A stretch of 34,011 nt of DNA. Origin: a candidate division Zixibacteria bacterium SM23_73_3. GTDB taxonomy: Bacteria; Zixibacteria; MSB-5A5; SM1-73. Made by a program: the position numbers and the translations under genes. The notes beneath the pieces were generated by a model. That model did not search any database. It saw only the letters and a program-made list of their open reading frames with translations, and was not told the DNA's origin. Below are positions 326 through 10,154 of this stretch, piece after piece. Numbering within the stretch: the first letter of the stretch is position 1; the number at the start of each line of letters is the position of its first letter. Where the stretch lies: NCBI GenBank assembly GCA_001304155.1, contig LJUX01000010.1, forward strand, positions 1 to 34,011. Reading direction: 5' to 3'.

Positions 326-492
326 AAAATGAGTTATCCCACGAGTTTCCTCATCTGTCATTCTGACCTCGCCTTTGTTGGAGGAAGAATCTTGGTCGCC
401 ACGTTCCCTAAGAAGGACAAAAAACACTACCTGTCTCAATTCACTGTTTCCCTTGTTTGTCACGCCAACTAAGTGATAACGGATTCATCCTG

Positions 493-765: not shown

Positions 766-2874
766 ATGAAATCAAGAAACAAAAATTCGGAAACACCCAT
801 GCAGAATAGAATCCGGAATATGATGAAAAGATGGAGAAGTCAACTCATTGTATCTGGTGTTGTTGTCATCTTGGCTATACTGAGTTTCTTGAACGAGTCA
901 TTAGACCTCCCCCATCTTCTTGTCGGCGCACCATCTACCCCCGTCAACTGGGCGGAGATTGCCCTTTATGTGATAGCTTTGTTTTTAGTTGGCTTCATTT
1001 CCATCTTCCTGCTGAGCCTTGTCGAATCGAGGCGCAAGCAGGCGGAGGAGAAGGTGCGGGAGTCGGAGAGAAAATATAGACTTCTGGTGGAAACTACACA
1101 GGAGGGAATTGCAGGTACTGATTTAGATGAAAACTTAATATTCACAAACCGGGCTTTTGCCGCCCTTCTGGGCTATAAAAAGGAAGAACTTCTCGGTCTT
1201 AGCCTTAGCCTGATTTCTGATAAGGAAGGATTTGCCAAACTCAGAGAAGAGACAAGGAAAAGAAAACGGGGACAATCATCTAAATATGAAGCCAAGCTTT
1301 ATACTAAGGCTGGTGAAGTTAAGTATTTCAGTGTATCTGCCACTCCGCTTTCTGACGCCAAGGGTATTGTCACCGGAACTTTAGGCTTGCTGGACGACAT
1401 CACCGAGCGCAAGCGGACGGAGGAGGCGCTGCGGGAAAGTGAGGAGAGATACAGAGCGCTGTTTACGAGTGCTGCTGAGGGAATACTCTTGGCAGACATT
1501 GGAACAAAGGAATTCAAGTATGCCAATCCGGCAATATGTAGAATGTTGGGCTATACTGAAGAAGAACTCAAACGAATGGGTGTAGTTGACCTTCATCCCA
1601 AAGATGCTTTGGAGCACGTGATTTCCGAATTCGAGGCTCAGGCACGAGGAGAAAAAACGTTAGCCCCAAAAATTCCGTGTTTGCGAAAAGACGGAACAAC
1701 GATATATGCCGATATTAACACCGCCAGGGTCTTGATAGATGGAAGAGAATGCAATGCAGGTTTATTCACAGACATCACCGAACGCAAGCGGGCGGAGGAG
1801 GCGTTACTATCAGAAAAAGATAGGTTGCAAGCTCTTATGGAAGGATTAGCCCAGACAGGAATTGGCATCGATATTGTCGGAATTGATTATAAAGTAAAGT
1901 TTCAAAATCTAACGTTAAGAGAAAGGTTCGGTGATTTGACTGGAAAACTGTGTTATGAAAATTATATGGGATCAAAAGAACCTTACGATTTCTGTCCTAT
2001 GTTGAAGGCAATAAAAAATAACCAGGTAGAAAGCGTTGAATTAAAAGCTACTGATGGAAGAGACTATGAGCTGATTTCAGCTCCATTCCCGAATCCAGAT
2101 GGAACTGTTGATAAGGTAGTTGAGGTTGTTATGGACACCACAGAGCGCAAGCGGGCAGAGGAGTTGCTGCGGGAGAGCGAGAAACTTGCCGCCACGGGCC
2201 GTATGGCCGCCCGCATCGCCCACGAGATCAACAACCCGTTGGGCGGAATTAAAAACTCATTTCTGCTGATAAAGGATGCCATCCCCAAGGATTACACTTA
2301 CTACGAATACGTGGGGCGGATTGAGAAAGAGATTGATCGGATCGCCCACATCGTGCATCAGATGTTCGGTCTGTACCGGCAGGAACAAAAGCCAACAAAG
2401 CGGTTTTCAGTAGATGAAACCATTCGTGACGTGGTTGCCCTGCTTGAGTCAAGCTGTCGTCAGCATCAAATAAAAATAGAGCTCGACACCGCCAGGGTAC
2501 CTGTTATAGACGCCATGCTGGAGGGCTCACTTAGACAGGTATTGTTCAATATTATCCGGAATGCCATCGAAGCATCGCCGCCAGGGGAGAAAGTCAAGGT
2601 GGCTGCTGGGTCATCTAAGGATTTCTTAACCCTCACAGTTTCCGATCAGGGCAAAGGTATCCCCAAGGAAATACGTTCCCGGATCTTCGAGCCGTTTTTT
2701 ACCACCAAAAGTGCTGAGGTCACGGGCGGATTAGGTCTGGGCCTTTCGGTTTCCAGAAGCTTGGTGGAGTCGATAGGGGGTTCACTTGATTTTAAGAGTA
2801 AGGCAGGTGAAGGGACCAAATTTAGAATCTTCCTGCCCATAGAAAGGCTAAAAAAGGAGGAGCAAAATGGCTGA
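766..2874 (+). CDS. Membrane-bound triple-PAS sensor histidine kinase
   Basis: This is a sensor kinase that would autophosphorylate and pass phosphate to a partner regulator, most simply the product of the next gene. The N-terminus has two hydrophobic segments (about residues 27-43 and 62-86) with only a short loop between, so sensing is probably through the three cytoplasmic PAS domains (about 99-215, 223-340 and 348-460). The H-box reads ARIAHEINNPLGG with phospho-acceptor His486. The ATPase domain shows the N-box around Asn599 (NIIRNAIEAS), the G1 box around Asp627 (VSDQGKGIP) and a GLGLGLSVSR G2 box. ERKR(A/T)EE linkers join the PAS units, as usual for hybrid-style sensors, but there is no receiver domain of its own. 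ATG 766 follows a run of seven Gs. The stop overlaps the next start by 8 bp, indicating translational coupling. The ligand is not evident. Confidence 0.95.
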   Translation: MKSRNKNSETPMQNRIRNMMKRWRSQLIVSGVVVILAILSFLNESLDLPHLLVGAPSTPVNWAEIALYVIALFLVGFISIFLLSLVESRRKQAEEKVRESERKYRLLVETTQEGIAGTDLDENLIFTNRAFAALLGYKKEELLGLSLSLISDKEGFAKLREETRKRKRGQSSKYEAKLYTKAGEVKYFSVSATPLSDAKGIVTGTLGLLDDITERKRTEEALRESEERYRALFTSAAEGILLADIGTKEFKYANPAICRMLGYTEEELKRMGVVDLHPKDALEHVISEFEAQARGEKTLAPKIPCLRKDGTTIYADINTARVLIDGRECNAGLFTDITERKRAEEALLSEKDRLQALMEGLAQTGIGIDIVGIDYKVKFQNLTLRERFGDLTGKLCYENYMGSKEPYDFCPMLKAIKNNQVESVELKATDGRDYELISAPFPNPDGTVDKVVEVVMDTTERKRAEELLRESEKLAATGRMAARIAHEINNPLGGIKNSFLLIKDAIPKDYTYYEYVGRIEKEIDRIAHIVHQMFGLYRQEQKPTKRFSVDETIRDVVALLESSCRQHQIKIELDTARVPVIDAMLEGSLRQVLFNIIRNAIEASPPGEKVKVAAGSSKDFLTLTVSDQGKGIPKEIRSRIFEPFFTTKSAEVTGGLGLGLSVSRSLVESIGGSLDFKSKAGEGTKFRIFLPIERLKKEEQNG

Positions 2875-3604
2875 TCTGGGTCAAATCCTGATTGCTGAGG
2901 ACGAGGAGACGTTTTTAAACTCTACGGCTGACCTGCTTCGCCGAAGCGGTTATCGATGCGCTTGTGTGCCGGATGCTGTCACCGCTGCCGAGAAGCTGCG
3001 CAGAGCCGAATACGACCTGTTGATTGCCGACATCAAAATGCCGGGCAACCCGGAACTTGAGTTCATTCAGGACGTGCCGCAAATTGCCGAAGGCATGCCG
3101 GTCATCTTAGTGACCGGTTATCCTTCGCTTACTACCGCCATACAGTCGATTCAACTGCCGGTGGTGGCTTACCTGGTCAAGCCGATTGATTTCGACGAGC
3201 TGTTAGCACTGGCTAAGAGGTCAATTAAGAACTTCCGAGTGTATCGCGCTGTTCGGAGCATAGATCAACGTCTGCAAAACTGGCTTGGGGATCTGGCGGG
3301 AACGGAAGAGGTATTGAAAAGCGCTCCGGGTTACACGTCTTCCGCACCGGTGGATGCCTTTCTCAAACTTACCTACAGAAACGTGGTGGGCGCTCTTTCG
3401 GATATGAAACACTTGACCGAAGCGTTAGCCTTGCAGGCTGGTGAACAGGAAGCCTGCCATCTGCTCAACTGTCCCAAGCTGACTACGCTGACCAATGCCC
3501 TAAAGGAGACCATCGACGTTTTAGAGGAGACCAAAACCGCCTTCAAGTCCAAAAAGCTGGGTGAACTGCGCGGGAAACTGGAGAGCTTGTTAAAGGAGAA
3601 ATGA
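2867..3604 (+). CDS. Response regulator, receiver domain plus helical C-terminal domain (copy 1)
   Basis: Probable phosphate acceptor for the kinase just upstream; the genes overlap by 8 bp and AAAGGAGG lies inside the kinase's end. Residues 1-120 form a standard receiver domain: acidic pair Glu11/Asp12, phospho-acceptor Asp55 (LLIADIKMPG), switch Thr83 and conserved Lys105 (LVKP). The remaining 125 residues are not a recognisable DNA-binding, GGDEF, EAL or HD-GYP output. They look helical and end in a basic, leucine-rich tail (AFKSKKLGELRGKLESLL). The domain also carries HLLNCPKL, a cysteine-containing segment kept in the paralogue at 3817-4605. Overall identity to that paralogue is roughly 60 percent by eye, so the pair arose by duplication. 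Output mode is unknown; protein-protein signalling is inferred from the absence of a helix-turn-helix. Confidence 0.9.
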   Translation: MADLGQILIAEDEETFLNSTADLLRRSGYRCACVPDAVTAAEKLRRAEYDLLIADIKMPGNPELEFIQDVPQIAEGMPVILVTGYPSLTTAIQSIQLPVVAYLVKPIDFDELLALAKRSIKNFRVYRAVRSIDQRLQNWLGDLAGTEEVLKSAPGYTSSAPVDAFLKLTYRNVVGALSDMKHLTEALALQAGEQEACHLLNCPKLTTLTNALKETIDVLEETKTAFKSKKLGELRGKLESLLKEK

Positions 3605-3659: not shown

Positions 3660-3777
3660 TGAAAAGGCTCACAATGTAGATATGGGTCGCTTTGTCGGAC
3701 AGAAAAAAAACCTGTAAGTCGAAGGCACAATCAGGCCAGTCTCTTTAAAAAGAGGCGATTTCGGTTGTGCCTTTTTT
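3660..3777 (+). ncRNA. Structured RNA element, copy 1, ending in a terminator
   Basis: This gap holds a sequence repeated after the next regulator gene (4621-4735). Shared blocks, in order, are GGCTCACAA, TGGGTCGC, TGTCGGACA (3693-3701) and ACCTGTAAGTCGAAG (3710-3724), then CACAATC and CAGTCTC. GGCTCA (3666-3671) can pair with TGGGTC (3683-3688) using G-U pairs. ACAG and CTGT can close a second hairpin flanked by G-A appositions. A third fold, GGCACAA (3724-3730) with TTGTGCC (3765-3771), encloses CTCTTT/AAAGAG and is followed by six Ts, so it is an intrinsic terminator. It could be a riboswitch leader for the downstream regulator or a conserved 3' untranslated region. I do not recognise the class. 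Confidence 0.55.
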
Positions 3778-3816
3778 GTTTTCTGACAAGCATGACCATC
3801 GGTTCAGAGGTAGAAC

Positions 3817-4605
3817 GTGGATAGTCTGGGTCGTATCCTGATTGCGGATGACGAAGAGACCTTCTTAGTCTCCACTGCTGATCTTTTGCGCAGGGAAGGA
3901 TATGAGTGCGATTGCGTTCCGGATGCTGCAACCGCTTTGGACATGTTGAAACAGGCGAGATACGACCTGTTGATCTCCGACATAAAAATACCTGGCAATC
4001 GGGAACTTAAACTTATCCGCGAGATTCGATCTATTATCGAGGGCATGCCGGTGATCTTAATGACCGGTTATCCTTCGGTTAATACCGCGGTGGAGTCGAT
4101 TCAACTGTCGGTGGATGCCTATCTGGTCAAGCCGGTTGATTTCGATCGTCTTTTGGGGCAGGTTAAGATTTCAATTAAGAACTTTTGGTTTTATCGTGCC
4201 GTCCAGAACGTGGAACGACGATTCCACAGTCTATGCAATGATCTGCAGGGCATTGAGGCGGTATTGAATAGCAGCCCGTATCGGCATACGTCTTCTTTAC
4301 CCCTGGATACCTTCTTGGAGCTCACCTTTCGAAACATCGTAGCCGCCCTGTCGGATGTGAAGCACTTAACCGAGGGGCTCAACCAGAACGCTGTGGAGCA
4401 AGGAGTATGTCATCTGTTCAATTGTCCCAGGCTGTCTGATTTGAGGGATGCTTTGTTGGAGACAATCGATGTCTTAAAAGAGACCAAGAACGCCTTCAAG
4501 TCCAAAGAATTGGGTGAATTATGTCTGAAGCTGGGTGAACTTGTCAATAAAAGAGCTAAAGAAGAAGTTGACGAAAAGATAAAACTGGAAGTTTCAACAG
4601 CATGA
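3817..4605 (+). CDS. Response regulator, receiver domain plus helical C-terminal domain (copy 2)
   Basis: Paralogue of the regulator at 2867-3604, collinear with it through the receiver domain and carrying the same key residues: Asp11/Asp12, phospho-acceptor Asp55 (LLISDIKIPG), Thr83 and Lys105 (LVKP). The C-terminal domain keeps the SDVKHLTE, CHLFNCPRL and AFKSKELGEL segments. It adds a charged tail of about 20 residues rich in Lys and Glu that copy 1 lacks. The start is GTG 3817, with GAGG six bases upstream; no in-frame ATG offers a better site. It is separated from copy 1 by 212 bp containing the structured element and its terminator. It may therefore be expressed conditionally relative to the kinase and copy 1. 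No DNA-binding domain is visible, and the partner kinase could be the same one (inferred). Confidence 0.88.
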   Translation: MDSLGRILIADDEETFLVSTADLLRREGYECDCVPDAATALDMLKQARYDLLISDIKIPGNRELKLIREIRSIIEGMPVILMTGYPSVNTAVESIQLSVDAYLVKPVDFDRLLGQVKISIKNFWFYRAVQNVERRFHSLCNDLQGIEAVLNSSPYRHTSSLPLDTFLELTFRNIVAALSDVKHLTEGLNQNAVEQGVCHLFNCPRLSDLRDALLETIDVLKETKNAFKSKELGELCLKLGELVNKRAKEEVDEKIKLEVSTA

Positions 4606-4620
4606 ACCGTTATCAAGTCA

Positions 4621-4735
4621 TGGGAGGGCTCACAACTTTGGTGTGGGTCGCCCTGTCGGACAAAAGGAGGACCTGTAAGTCGAAGCACAATCGAATCAGT
4701 CTCATGGGATGGAATGATCCCGATTGTGTCTTCTT
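4621..4735 (+). ncRNA. Structured RNA element, copy 2
   Basis: Second copy of the element at 3660-3777. The first stem is stronger here: GGCTCACA (4627-4634) pairs with TGTGGGTC (4642-4649) over eight positions using G-U pairs. TGTCGGACA (4654-4662) and ACCTGTAAGTCGAAG (4671-4685) are identical to copy 1. The terminator-like fold is GCACAATCG (4685-4693) with CGATTGTGT (4721-4729), followed by a pyrimidine-rich CTTCTT. The loop between its arms has changed completely, while the stem is kept through altered bases, which argues for selection on structure. No gene on this strand follows, so here it sits at the end of the operon. Confidence 0.55.
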
Positions 4736-4958
4736 ATTGGAGGGTGATTTTAAGTCTGAGCAAGAGTGGGAACAAAACAATAATAGGCGTTTGATCTAAT
4801 TGGAAGAGTCAATTGATAAAGGGGACGGCCATTGGTTTTTTCGAGAAGATAAAACACCCTTAGTTGCTGGTTCTCACTCTTGTTCAGCAAAGAAACAATC
4901 TGATATTTACATTTCGTCGATTGAACCCGATGGCTGCTTGTGCCGGCGTTTGGACGTA

Positions 4959-6509: not shown

Positions 6510-9500
6510 CTATCCAACCATACTCAGCAGTTTTCTGTAGTCTTTGGGATTTCCATGCTTGATTTTTTTATGCAAATTCACAGTGTCTGGTTCGGGTTCG
6601 ATCTCAAGATACCTTTTTAGGTTTCCTTCGCACACCTTGAACTGCCGTATGGCAGCGGTACGACTCCCCAGAAGGGCATAGGAGAGCATTATCATGCGGT
6701 GAGCTTCCTCATCCGTGGGATCGGATAAAAGCAGAGACTGGAGGTAACTAATGCAGTTTTCGTAATCAGATTTCTCCCAGGCGGATTGAGCTAACCTTCG
6801 GAACACGGTATTATACTTTTCCCTGTATTCATCCCGGGCTTCCTCTGCCCAGCGTTCGTAGAAATCTTCTAACAGGTTGGAGGAATAAAGCTCTGCCGCC
6901 TTCCGGTATTCCAAGTCCATCAAATGAAACTTCTCCTCCTTCTGAAAGCGGAGGGCGTTGTCCAGACAACTTAGAAATTCACCCACATCAGACCAGATCT
7001 TACCTTCCCAGTTTAATCGATAGACTCCAGCCTGGGAGGAGAGATACTCCCCCTTCTTTTTCTCGATAGCTTTTCTGAGATGAGAAAGGGTCACATGAAA
7101 GGTATTGCCCAGACTTTGAGGATCGATTTCCGGCCAGATGGCATCCAACAGCTTGTCCCGGGTGACCCCGATCCTTTTCGTATCCTTCACCACCAGATAA
7201 GCTAAAATCTGCGTGGCTTTGGCCGACCCCCACTCTTTTGCCGAAATCTCCTCGGACTCATACGGTCGATATACCCTGAGCCTTCCAAAGCAATAGATGC
7301 GGAGATGATCCATGTAGTCGCCACTTATCACTACCGGAGTGGGGGATTCTGGCTGTTTTTCAGCCTCTTTTTTTGTCCTCATGTGCATAATCTTCTGTTC
7401 GATTTTCTCGAGGAGAGGGCTTAATTCAGACCCCAGATGGTTATCCTTTATTTTCTCTTTTAAAAAGATCAGTCTTTTTTCGAAATTGAGTCCGGTAAAT
7501 ATCTTTATAACCTGGTTTAAGGTATCAATACTTCTTTGAAACAGACTTTCTCTCTTTTCTGTTTTTTCCCAGATGGACATCTGTGCCAGACAGAGCCCCA
7601 GACTTTCCAGTGTTTGTGCCAATTGGAAGGGAGAGCCCAATTCTTCAAAAAGGATTTTGCTCTCCCGCAAAAATTTTTCTGCGTTCTCCCATTTCTTAAG
7701 AGAGAGGTAGAACTGCCCCAAAGTTCTTTTAGAGATCCCTATGTTCAGTTTGGAGGACTGTTTGGTGGCCATATCCAGAGCTTCATTAACTAAAGCCAAT
7801 CCTTTCTCATGTTGGTTGAGTTGGAAATGGATAGCTCCCAGATCTGTCTGAATGATGGGTAAAATATTTTTGGCTCCGATTTTTTGGCAGATGTCAAAGC
7901 TCTGGCTCACATAATCCAGTGCCTTGTCTGGCTGTCCCTGGGATAGGAAAGTCACCCCTAAGTTGTCAAGCGCGGATACCATTCCCCGTCGATCCCCATA
8001 CTGTTCCCTTATCCTCAGACTCTTTTCAAGAAAACCGAGCGCCTTCTCCCATTCACCTTTGTCCTTGTATAGCACTCCCAGATTATTATAGATGATGCCT
8101 TTCCAGGACAGATTGCCCATTTCCTGAGCTACATTCAACGCTTTATAGTAGTAATCCTCAGCCTGGTCATACTGTCCCAGATTGAGATGAATCACTCCCA
8201 GATTGATCTTCAAAGCGGAGAGCCTTGATTTATCCTGAATCTTGCGTTGGATTTCTAAAGATCGATTAAAGAATTCGATGGCTTCATCATATTTCCCCTG
8301 ACCGTATGCCACCATCCCCAGATTGCTATAGCTCTGCTCTATCAGGGGGAGATGTTTTCTTTTCCGAGAGAGTTTGATCCCTTTGTTTGACCAGTGGATA
8401 CACTTCTGGTGTTCCCCCTTCATGATATAGGTTAACCCCAGGGAATTACAGATGGTGATGAACTCTGTGCGTTCAGCCTCAGAGGAGATATCTTTCAATT
8501 CTTTTAAGGCACGTTCATAATAAGAGATGGCTTCAGTGTAGTCACTTATAGTATGATACACATAACCGATCCTTCTATACAATTGAGCTTTTTTGAGCTG
8601 GTCTAAAAGTTTTTGAATCTCTCCCAGCTTCAAAGCCGCCTGATAGGAATTTATGGCGGAGTCCGATTTGCCCACTCTGCTCTGAACATCACCCAAAGAT
8701 TCCAGGAGTTTAAGCAATTTCGCATATTTCTCTTTGGAGGCAGGGATATTTTTCAAAAGCTCCTGAGCTTGGAGTAGATACTGCTCTGCTTTACTTTCCG
8801 AGTATTGTTTTTGCATCTTCTGTCCTGCCTGGATCAAATAATTTATGCTTTTCTTTAAAGAGCTTCGATCTTTTTTCCCCCGGCTGAAATGATAAGCTAA
8901 ATCCTCTACCTTTTGAGATAATTTGACTTTCTCTTTTTCCCTCTCCAGAATGGTTGCTATCTTCTGATGGATTTTCTCTTTAAACTCCAGGCTAAGATTC
9001 TGATAGATGTGAAGACGAACGATATGATGGGTAAAACGATAATTTCCCTTTTCTTCTTCCATATCCGAGATTTTCTGAATCAGGTTTTTTACGATCAACT
9101 CACCTACGATCCTTCTTAACTGTCTGGGGGAGATGGTCAAAAGTTTCTGTAAGGTTTCGATGTCGAATCTCTCACCTGTCACCGAAGCAAGCGACAGCAC
9201 CTTTTGGGATAACTTGTCCAGTCCCATAAGTCTCCGTTCGATCACACTCGGCAGGGTGGCAGGTTCCAAGACCCTTTCCTGATATTCCTCTTTGATTTCC
9301 CAGCCAGATTCAACGGGATCGAAAAAGAAGATGTCCTGCTCCACGCCTGATCTTAAGGTCTCATTTATGAATAAAGGATTTCCTGCGGTATAATCCAGAA
9401 GCCATTGAAAGAAATTGTTAGTCAATTGTTGGTTGAAGAAGGTTTCCACCAGAGTTTTCACCTCTTGCTGAGTCAGAGAAGAGAGCTTCAGCCGATTGAC

Positions 9501-10154
9501 TAACCTCTGATCCTCCAGATTGCCAAGCCACCCCTCGGTAAAAGAATCCGCCTGGGCACCCCGGCTGGAGGCGATCACCAGGATAGGAGACTTCCTGAAA
9601 TTTGTGATCAGATATCTCAAAAGTTCCAGCGTGTCCGGCTCCAACCAGTGTAGATCCTCAATGTCCAAGATCAGAGGATATCGATGGGAAAGCTTTAAAA
9701 AGAGGAGCAAAAACATGTCATAAAATCTTTGCTTCTCTTCCTTGGGTGACATAGGAGGTGTGGTGATACGAGAGATATCAAAGGGAATGTATTTCTCAAT
9801 TTCAGGAACTATCTTCTCCAGAAGGGCGATGGTCAAATTGTCCAAAAGAGGTGCCAAGTATCGGGTGTCGTAGTTGACCGAAGAAAAAAAGTCCCGAAGC
9901 ATCTCGGAAAAGAGTCGGTAAGGTGAGATCTCCTTATGATATCCATGTCCCCGGATCACCATGGCTCCCCGGGGTTTTATCCTGTCGAGAAATTGTTCCA
10001 CCAATCTGGTTTTTCCTATCCCGGTCTCCCCCTCAATCAAAACGAACCCCCCCCGATTCTCCAGAATGGAATCGAAGAATCCTTCCAGAATTTTCAACTC
10101 ACTTTCCCTTCCCACGAAGGGAACATTTCTTTCAGTGGAGAACTGTAGATTCAC
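6510..10154 (-). CDS. AAA ATPase-TPR-winged helix-BTAD signal-transduction regulator
   Basis: A large one-component or STAND-type transcription regulator. Residues about 11-190 form an AAA domain with Walker A GETGIGKT (42-49) and Walker B LILDIEDLHW (Asp164, Asp167). A sensor/winged region follows to about 420. Roughly residues 440-930 hold many tetratricopeptide repeats (for example YNNLGVLYKDKGEWEKALGF and NLGVTFLSQGQPDKALDY). From residue 948 comes an OmpR/PhoB-type winged helix (LLDAIWPEIDPQSLGNTFHVTLSHLRKAI has the HTH pattern). The bacterial transcriptional activator domain (BTAD) follows, to the end. SARP/AfsR regulators carry winged helix-BTAD at the N-terminus; here the pair is C-terminal. 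The start is GTG 10154, with AGGAG four bases upstream. It is divergent from the yjbQ-mtnA pair and upstream of the acetyltransferase gene, either of which could be its target (inference). Confidence 0.92.
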   Translation of the reverse strand: MNLQFSTERNVPFVGRESELKILEGFFDSILENRGGFVLIEGETGIGKTRLVEQFLDRIKPRGAMVIRGHGYHKEISPYRLFSEMLRDFFSSVNYDTRYLAPLLDNLTIALLEKIVPEIEKYIPFDISRITTPPMSPKEEKQRFYDMFLLLFLKLSHRYPLILDIEDLHWLEPDTLELLRYLITNFRKSPILVIASSRGAQADSFTEGWLGNLEDQRLVNRLKLSSLTQQEVKTLVETFFNQQLTNNFFQWLLDYTAGNPLFINETLRSGVEQDIFFFDPVESGWEIKEEYQERVLEPATLPSVIERRLMGLDKLSQKVLSLASVTGERFDIETLQKLLTISPRQLRRIVGELIVKNLIQKISDMEEEKGNYRFTHHIVRLHIYQNLSLEFKEKIHQKIATILEREKEKVKLSQKVEDLAYHFSRGKKDRSSLKKSINYLIQAGQKMQKQYSESKAEQYLLQAQELLKNIPASKEKYAKLLKLLESLGDVQSRVGKSDSAINSYQAALKLGEIQKLLDQLKKAQLYRRIGYVYHTISDYTEAISYYERALKELKDISSEAERTEFITICNSLGLTYIMKGEHQKCIHWSNKGIKLSRKRKHLPLIEQSYSNLGMVAYGQGKYDEAIEFFNRSLEIQRKIQDKSRLSALKINLGVIHLNLGQYDQAEDYYYKALNVAQEMGNLSWKGIIYNNLGVLYKDKGEWEKALGFLEKSLRIREQYGDRRGMVSALDNLGVTFLSQGQPDKALDYVSQSFDICQKIGAKNILPIIQTDLGAIHFQLNQHEKGLALVNEALDMATKQSSKLNIGISKRTLGQFYLSLKKWENAEKFLRESKILFEELGSPFQLAQTLESLGLCLAQMSIWEKTEKRESLFQRSIDTLNQVIKIFTGLNFEKRLIFLKEKIKDNHLGSELSPLLEKIEQKIMHMRTKKEAEKQPESPTPVVISGDYMDHLRIYCFGRLRVYRPYESEEISAKEWGSAKATQILAYLVVKDTKRIGVTRDKLLDAIWPEIDPQSLGNTFHVTLSHLRKAIEKKKGEYLSSQAGVYRLNWEGKIWSDVGEFLSCLDNALRFQKEEKFHLMDLEYRKAAELYSSNLLEDFYERWAEEARDEYREKYNTVFRRLAQSAWEKSDYENCISYLQSLLLSDPTDEEAHRMIMLSYALLGSRTAAIRQFKVCEGNLKRYLEIEPEPDTVNLHKKIKHGNPKDYRKLLSMVG

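Follow-up and report, generated by a model that had tools for sequence, protein, structure and literature searches.

Structured leader RNAs laid out like attenuators beside REC response regulators in Zixibacteria and Armatimonadota

To our knowledge, almost all response regulators described as acting on RNA do so through an ANTAR domain. Riboswitches for c-di-GMP and other second messengers are leaders placed before motility and chemotaxis genes, working through terminator or ribosome-site platforms, and the use of one core with two expression platforms is typical of cis-acting switches. The ANTAR antiterminator RNAs, targets of EutV, NasR and AmiR, consist of two hairpins with hexanucleotide loops whose first base is A and whose fourth is G, and the linker between the hairpins measures 5-12 nt (PMC3369931).

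The locus described here lies in a window (the whole stretch of DNA analysed) of 34,011 nucleotides from candidate division Zixibacteria bacterium SM23_73_3. Two intergenic elements, spanning 3666-3774 and 4627-4733, start ~60 bases past the stop codon of the response regulator gene RR1 and ~20 bases past that of RR2, respectively, and both end in intrinsic terminators. The features of the locus are as follows.

766..2874, plus strand: PAS-containing histidine kinase gene (ORF; Pfam HisKA, HATPase_c, PAS), overlapping the start of RR1
2867..3604, plus strand: RR1, REC with an unrecognised helical C-terminal domain, FKSK family (Pfam Response_reg only; family alignment)
3817..4605, plus strand: RR2, GTG start, the gene 3' of element 1 (ORF; 63% identical to RR1)
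3666..3688, plus strand: element 1, P1 hairpin, arms 3666-3671 (5') and 3683-3688 (3') (fold; P1 pair counts across copies)
3689..3726, plus strand: element 1, irregular hairpin P3-P2 (covariance models R2 and R3; pair counts)
3689-3693/3722-3726, plus strand: element 1, P3 strands
3694-3698/3716-3721, plus strand: element 1, internal loop
3699-3703/3711-3715, plus strand: element 1, P2 strands
3721..3777, plus strand: element 1, intrinsic terminator with the P3 3' strand 3722-3726 as 5' foot (fold energies)
3772-3777, plus strand: element 1, U tract
4627..4649, plus strand: element 2, P1 hairpin, arms 4627-4632/4644-4649 (fold; alignment)
4650..4686, plus strand: element 2, P3-P2 hairpin with damaged P3 and internal-loop bases kept (model match; pair table)
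4682..4738, plus strand: element 2, terminator, whose U-rich tail is weaker (fold; ORFs)

An initial sequence-only reading had reported the two elements, and they were indeed found where it placed them, with GGCTCACAA, TGGGTCGC, TGTCGGACA and ACCTGTAAGTCGAAG in common, in the same order and at near-fixed spacing, and with each copy running into a terminator hairpin by fold prediction. In element 2, at least two of the five P3 pairs are lost (pair table), and the ORF list contains no convincing plus-strand gene 3' of it. All internal-loop bases of this copy (4650-4686) are retained despite the broken P3 stem, a pattern that looks as if selection still kept binding but not switching.

The fold shared by the copies comprises a hairpin P1 followed, after 0-2 nt, by the irregular hairpin P3-P2, in which P3 (consensus GCCUU/AAGGC) and P2 (about RYRGR/YCUGY) are separated by an internal loop. 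Common to this element and the ANTAR RNAs are a REC response regulator nearby, tandem hairpins, several target operons and a second hairpin that excludes an intrinsic terminator, here by fold prediction only. In contrast to the ANTAR RNAs, P1 of the element has inner distances of 11 (11 nt inside the basal five pairs in eight copies) or 6, the P2 loops measure 7-11 nt and show no hexaloop A1/G4 pattern, the linker of 0-2 nt from P1 to P3 replaces one of 5-12 nt, conservation resides in the internal loop rather than in terminal loops, and the partner regulator has no ANTAR domain (Pfam, NCBIfam). Second-messenger riboswitches resemble the element in leader position and platforms, but its core is different and much smaller, without an Rfam match at permissive thresholds. 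Autoregulatory protein-binding leaders, those of ribosomal proteins for example, share with the element a small, irregular helix in which bulged or mismatched bases are invariant and, in some cases, a place ahead of the gene for the presumed binding protein; in the element, this protein would be a response regulator, and no Rfam family matches.

The two window copies agree at 47 of the 60 core positions, which are arranged in blocks. RR1 and RR2 have diverged to 63% protein identity, close to the ~60% given in the sequence-only reading, and to 71.5% DNA identity, with dS ~1.1 and 61% identity at fourfold sites, a rate that the core exceeds (binomial p ~0.004); the best 58-base stretch of their coding DNA is 86% identical. 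Judged from these two copies alone, the excess conservation appears real to a modest degree, and the strong evidence for the selection that had been proposed comes from recurrence in another phylum, beyond the window pair. The first stem, GGCUCA/UGGGUC, is the same in both copies apart from a loop-proximal pair (C-A versus C-G), and its G-U pairs are shared, which contradicts the earlier claim that this stem had stayed paired partly through G-U exchange. The changes on both sides within the window pair are located in a flanking alternative stem.

Rfam 15 (4227 families) gave no match to the window region or the other loci searched, at gathering or permissive thresholds, in agreement with the initial failure to assign the element to a known class, and no description of it was found within the part of the literature covered. 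A scan of GTDB representative contigs, in which an exact 19-base pattern was required so that diverged copies elsewhere were missed, yielded seven matches, three of them real by covariance score: Candidatus Zipacnadia (L016), bacterium CSMAG_1176 (L019) and Armatimonadota CSMAG_2444 (L021), each with a second copy ~1 kb away. The other four were rejected as chance matches (R1 scores of 12-14 bits); that in Dehalococcoidia falls within the coding sequence of an adenylate kinase, and R2 has no match in the genomes from Woeseiaceae, Intestinirhabdus and Flavobacterium. Viral contigs held no pattern match.

In the phylum searches, which scored the top candidates of each genome, the core model R2 run over 291 Armatimonadota genomes added G396 (2 copies), G356 (2) and G385 (1), for a total in this phylum of 11 further copies in six genomes, plus a twelfth, diverged copy beside a regulator gene. 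A deeper search with the final model R3 recovered 13 copies at 49-68 bits, scores that are partly by construction since R3 was trained on these same copies, versus noise of at most 25 bits; R2, trained without G396, G356 and G385, scores the copies there at 31-59 bits. Weak matches in G150, G278, G248 and G028 (~26 bits or less) were taken as noise, and the surrounding folds in the first three lack the element. Model R1 found no further copy in the window's class, nor did R3 find any beyond the window's genome in its class and phylum (the same 133 genomes). The covariance search of related genomes suggested at the outset was productive in Armatimonadota and empty in the window's own phylum. 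A mobile repeat was dismissed, as the element occupies at most three places per genome, mostly beside regulator or chemotaxis genes.

All 14 copies share one invariant C-G and one invariant G-A opposition in the internal loop; as the outer pair, 13 have G-C and one has A-U. P2 shows two-sided changes at pair 1 (A-U/G-C) and pair 5 (G-C/A-U), and its covariation score was reached by none of 500 shuffles, the alignment behind both the counts and the shuffle test being fitted to the model structure, towards which the counts lean. When P1 is included, four pairs change on both sides in an alignment by sequence only. In both counts, related copies are not independent. It is well supported that the element is a selected, structured RNA. 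A stretch shared by L037 and L041, GCTAAAG...GCGGGG..., lies ~50 bases upstream of the elements there; present ahead of several elements, it may belong to the leader as well.

In the terminator-bearing copies, the P3 3' strand doubles, in predicted folds, as the 5' foot of the terminator stem, and P3-P2 and the terminator therefore exclude each other, as in an attenuator. Without this strand, the terminators lose 3-15 kcal/mol of predicted energy, and nascent RNA short of the terminator's second arm is predicted to fold P3-P2 in many copies. By predicted energies, the arrangement is that of attenuators in general, namely two exclusive folds, one of them an intrinsic terminator, before a gene. 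Three FliM leaders have no terminator, and their P3 AAGG lies within an AAGGGAG ribosome-binding site just before the AUG. Given the terminator and ribosome-site versions, one core serves two expression platforms, between which the regulatory sign may differ. Most copies have strong terminators by fold energies (that of L040 has the hairpin and no clear U tract), and these, together with the loss of P3 pairing in element 2, would fit a plain, unregulated terminator whose flanks are conserved. Yet the conserved bases lie ahead of the terminator, in the internal loop, and are also kept in the terminator-less FliM leaders, and we regard a plain terminator as highly improbable. From the anatomy, we infer that termination is regulated. 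The element is a new leader-RNA family, absent from Rfam, with an attenuator layout.

The element was originally said to follow the regulators; that position stands, and the element is better understood as the 5' leader, or the intercistronic attenuator, of whichever gene comes next (RR2, FliM, Hpt-CheA or MCP). In the window, element 1 precedes RR2. At L041, L042 and L021, copy a precedes the regulator gene and copy b a FliM protein (Pfam FliM, FliMN_C); at L037, the element stands before an Hpt-STAS gene followed by CheA; and at L040, it stands before an MCP-CheW pair, divergent from the regulator gene. In L038, L039 and window element 2, the terminator is present with no gene behind it. These three copies, and the several that lie directly 3' of a regulator stop codon, suit a small RNA or 3' UTR element that derives from the regulator transcript, ends at the terminator and acts in trans, for instance as a sponge for the regulator, for which the sequestration of EutV by EutX provides a model. 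Most copies, however, lie directly before a gene, three are built into a ribosome-binding site, and a consensus scan found no clear promoter of their own, which makes action in trans improbable.

L037 contains a 568-base unit, including the element, that is duplicated in tandem at 91% identity (1207-1774 and 2269-2834); it comprises the regulator C-terminus, the element and the Hpt start, and its duplication leaves a regulator fragment. Together with the window pair, this indicates that regulator-element units were duplicated in tandem in both phyla. In L021 (~420-492, minus strand), the element is followed by the FliM start region, GAAGGGAGCCCCGC with its ATG, repeated twice in succession.

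The regulators form a family with a REC domain followed by ~120 residues that carry the motif VLxxTxxxFKSKxLxxLR near their end. Profile searches of Pfam, NCBIfam and PDB returned no credible match for this C-terminal domain, nor did it match plasmids, and no known RNA-binding relative was found; the structure prediction for RR1 has a mean pLDDT of 57, with unreliable C-terminal helices. The regulator of L037 (1785-2537) has Glu at the expected phospho-accepting Asp position (LISEAN) and may be locked or phosphate-independent.

Full-length regulators occur in 5 of the 291 Armatimonadota genomes, and all five carry elements, three of these genomes being close relatives, so that the independent number is small. 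Because of this relatedness and of the linkage of the pairs, the co-occurrence may reflect co-inheritance. All six full-length regulators found in the phylum adjoin an element copy. At genome scale, no model matched next to the sixth gene (G356 C101, L055). This gene and an MCP gene diverge, and inspection of the MCP leader showed, before the start codon, a diverged element that has the P1 hairpin, P2, the AAGUUG strand of the loop and a terminator that begins within the P3 strand. As its score of 14.4 bits (E = 0.002, covariance E-values being rough) is significant for that 1.3-kb stretch only, the claim for this copy rests on its anatomy. Two regulator relatives from the window's phylum (G020, G028) have no element nearby, and their genes are paired with a kinase, like RR1 in the window. 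On the regulator tree, elements are found on several deep branches. The proposal of a new RNA class tied to a two-component system thus gains covarying stems, the absence of an Rfam match and recurrence in Armatimonadota beside homologous REC genes and loses the PAS kinase, the repeated partners being the regulator and chemotaxis-type genes.

The main rival is a riboswitch, in which a small signal molecule, such as a second messenger, would bind in a pocket made by P1 and P3-P2, and the same platforms would control chemotaxis-type genes and regulators. Second-messenger riboswitches control genes resembling the targets found here, and one conserved core with two platforms, the invariant internal-loop bases and the presence of an element in G385 (one of several draft assemblies), where a full-length regulator was not found, all agree with this possibility. 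Against it, the conserved core is very small, a single irregular helix with no junction or pseudoknot seen, no Rfam riboswitch matches, and the same regulator family is present at every Armatimonadota locus with target genes; we consider a riboswitch unlikely. A protein-bound leader is favoured because the regulator is repeatedly present.

The best explanation, to which we give slightly less than an even chance, is a leader-RNA attenuator that gates the next gene, with the adjacent REC/FKSK-type regulator as the most likely factor. During transcription, the RNA would fold P1 and then P3-P2. Without effector, the terminator stem would capture the P3 3' strand, and transcription would stop before the next gene; a factor holding P3-P2 through the invariant internal loop would leave the terminator without its foot, and the polymerase would read through. 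In the FliM leaders, the P3 strand would overlap the ribosome-binding site instead. Element 1 would gate RR2, and element 2, in which P3 is broken and which no gene follows, is probably a remnant of the tandem duplication that serves as a terminator or decoy. The factor would be the adjacent response regulator (REC plus the FKSK-type C-terminal domain), acting in an ANTAR-like manner with an unrelated output domain; by analogy, its role as the binder, taken as a step of its own, is plausible though somewhat doubtful. Counting against this explanation are the two regulator relatives that lack an element, the element of G385, the three copies with no gene behind them, the possible co-inheritance of regulator and element, and the missing RNA-binding relative of the C-terminal domain. 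A second, ANTAR-independent route to RNA, in which REC proteins equipped with a new helical output domain would bind this leader and control chemotaxis-type operons through antitermination or at the ribosome-binding site, is a tentative suggestion. If true, response regulators would have a second way to RNA, with the element accompanying the regulator family in two phyla. Even with a small molecule as the binder, the element would still represent a structured RNA family that no catalogue lists, for which the stems and two expression platforms are defined and a covariance model is at hand.

Elsewhere in the window, 6510-10154 on the minus strand encodes a 1214-aa protein in which an AAA ATPase domain and numerous TPR repeats are combined with a BTAD / Trans_reg_C region at the C terminus, apparently a large transcriptional activator with an unusual domain order.
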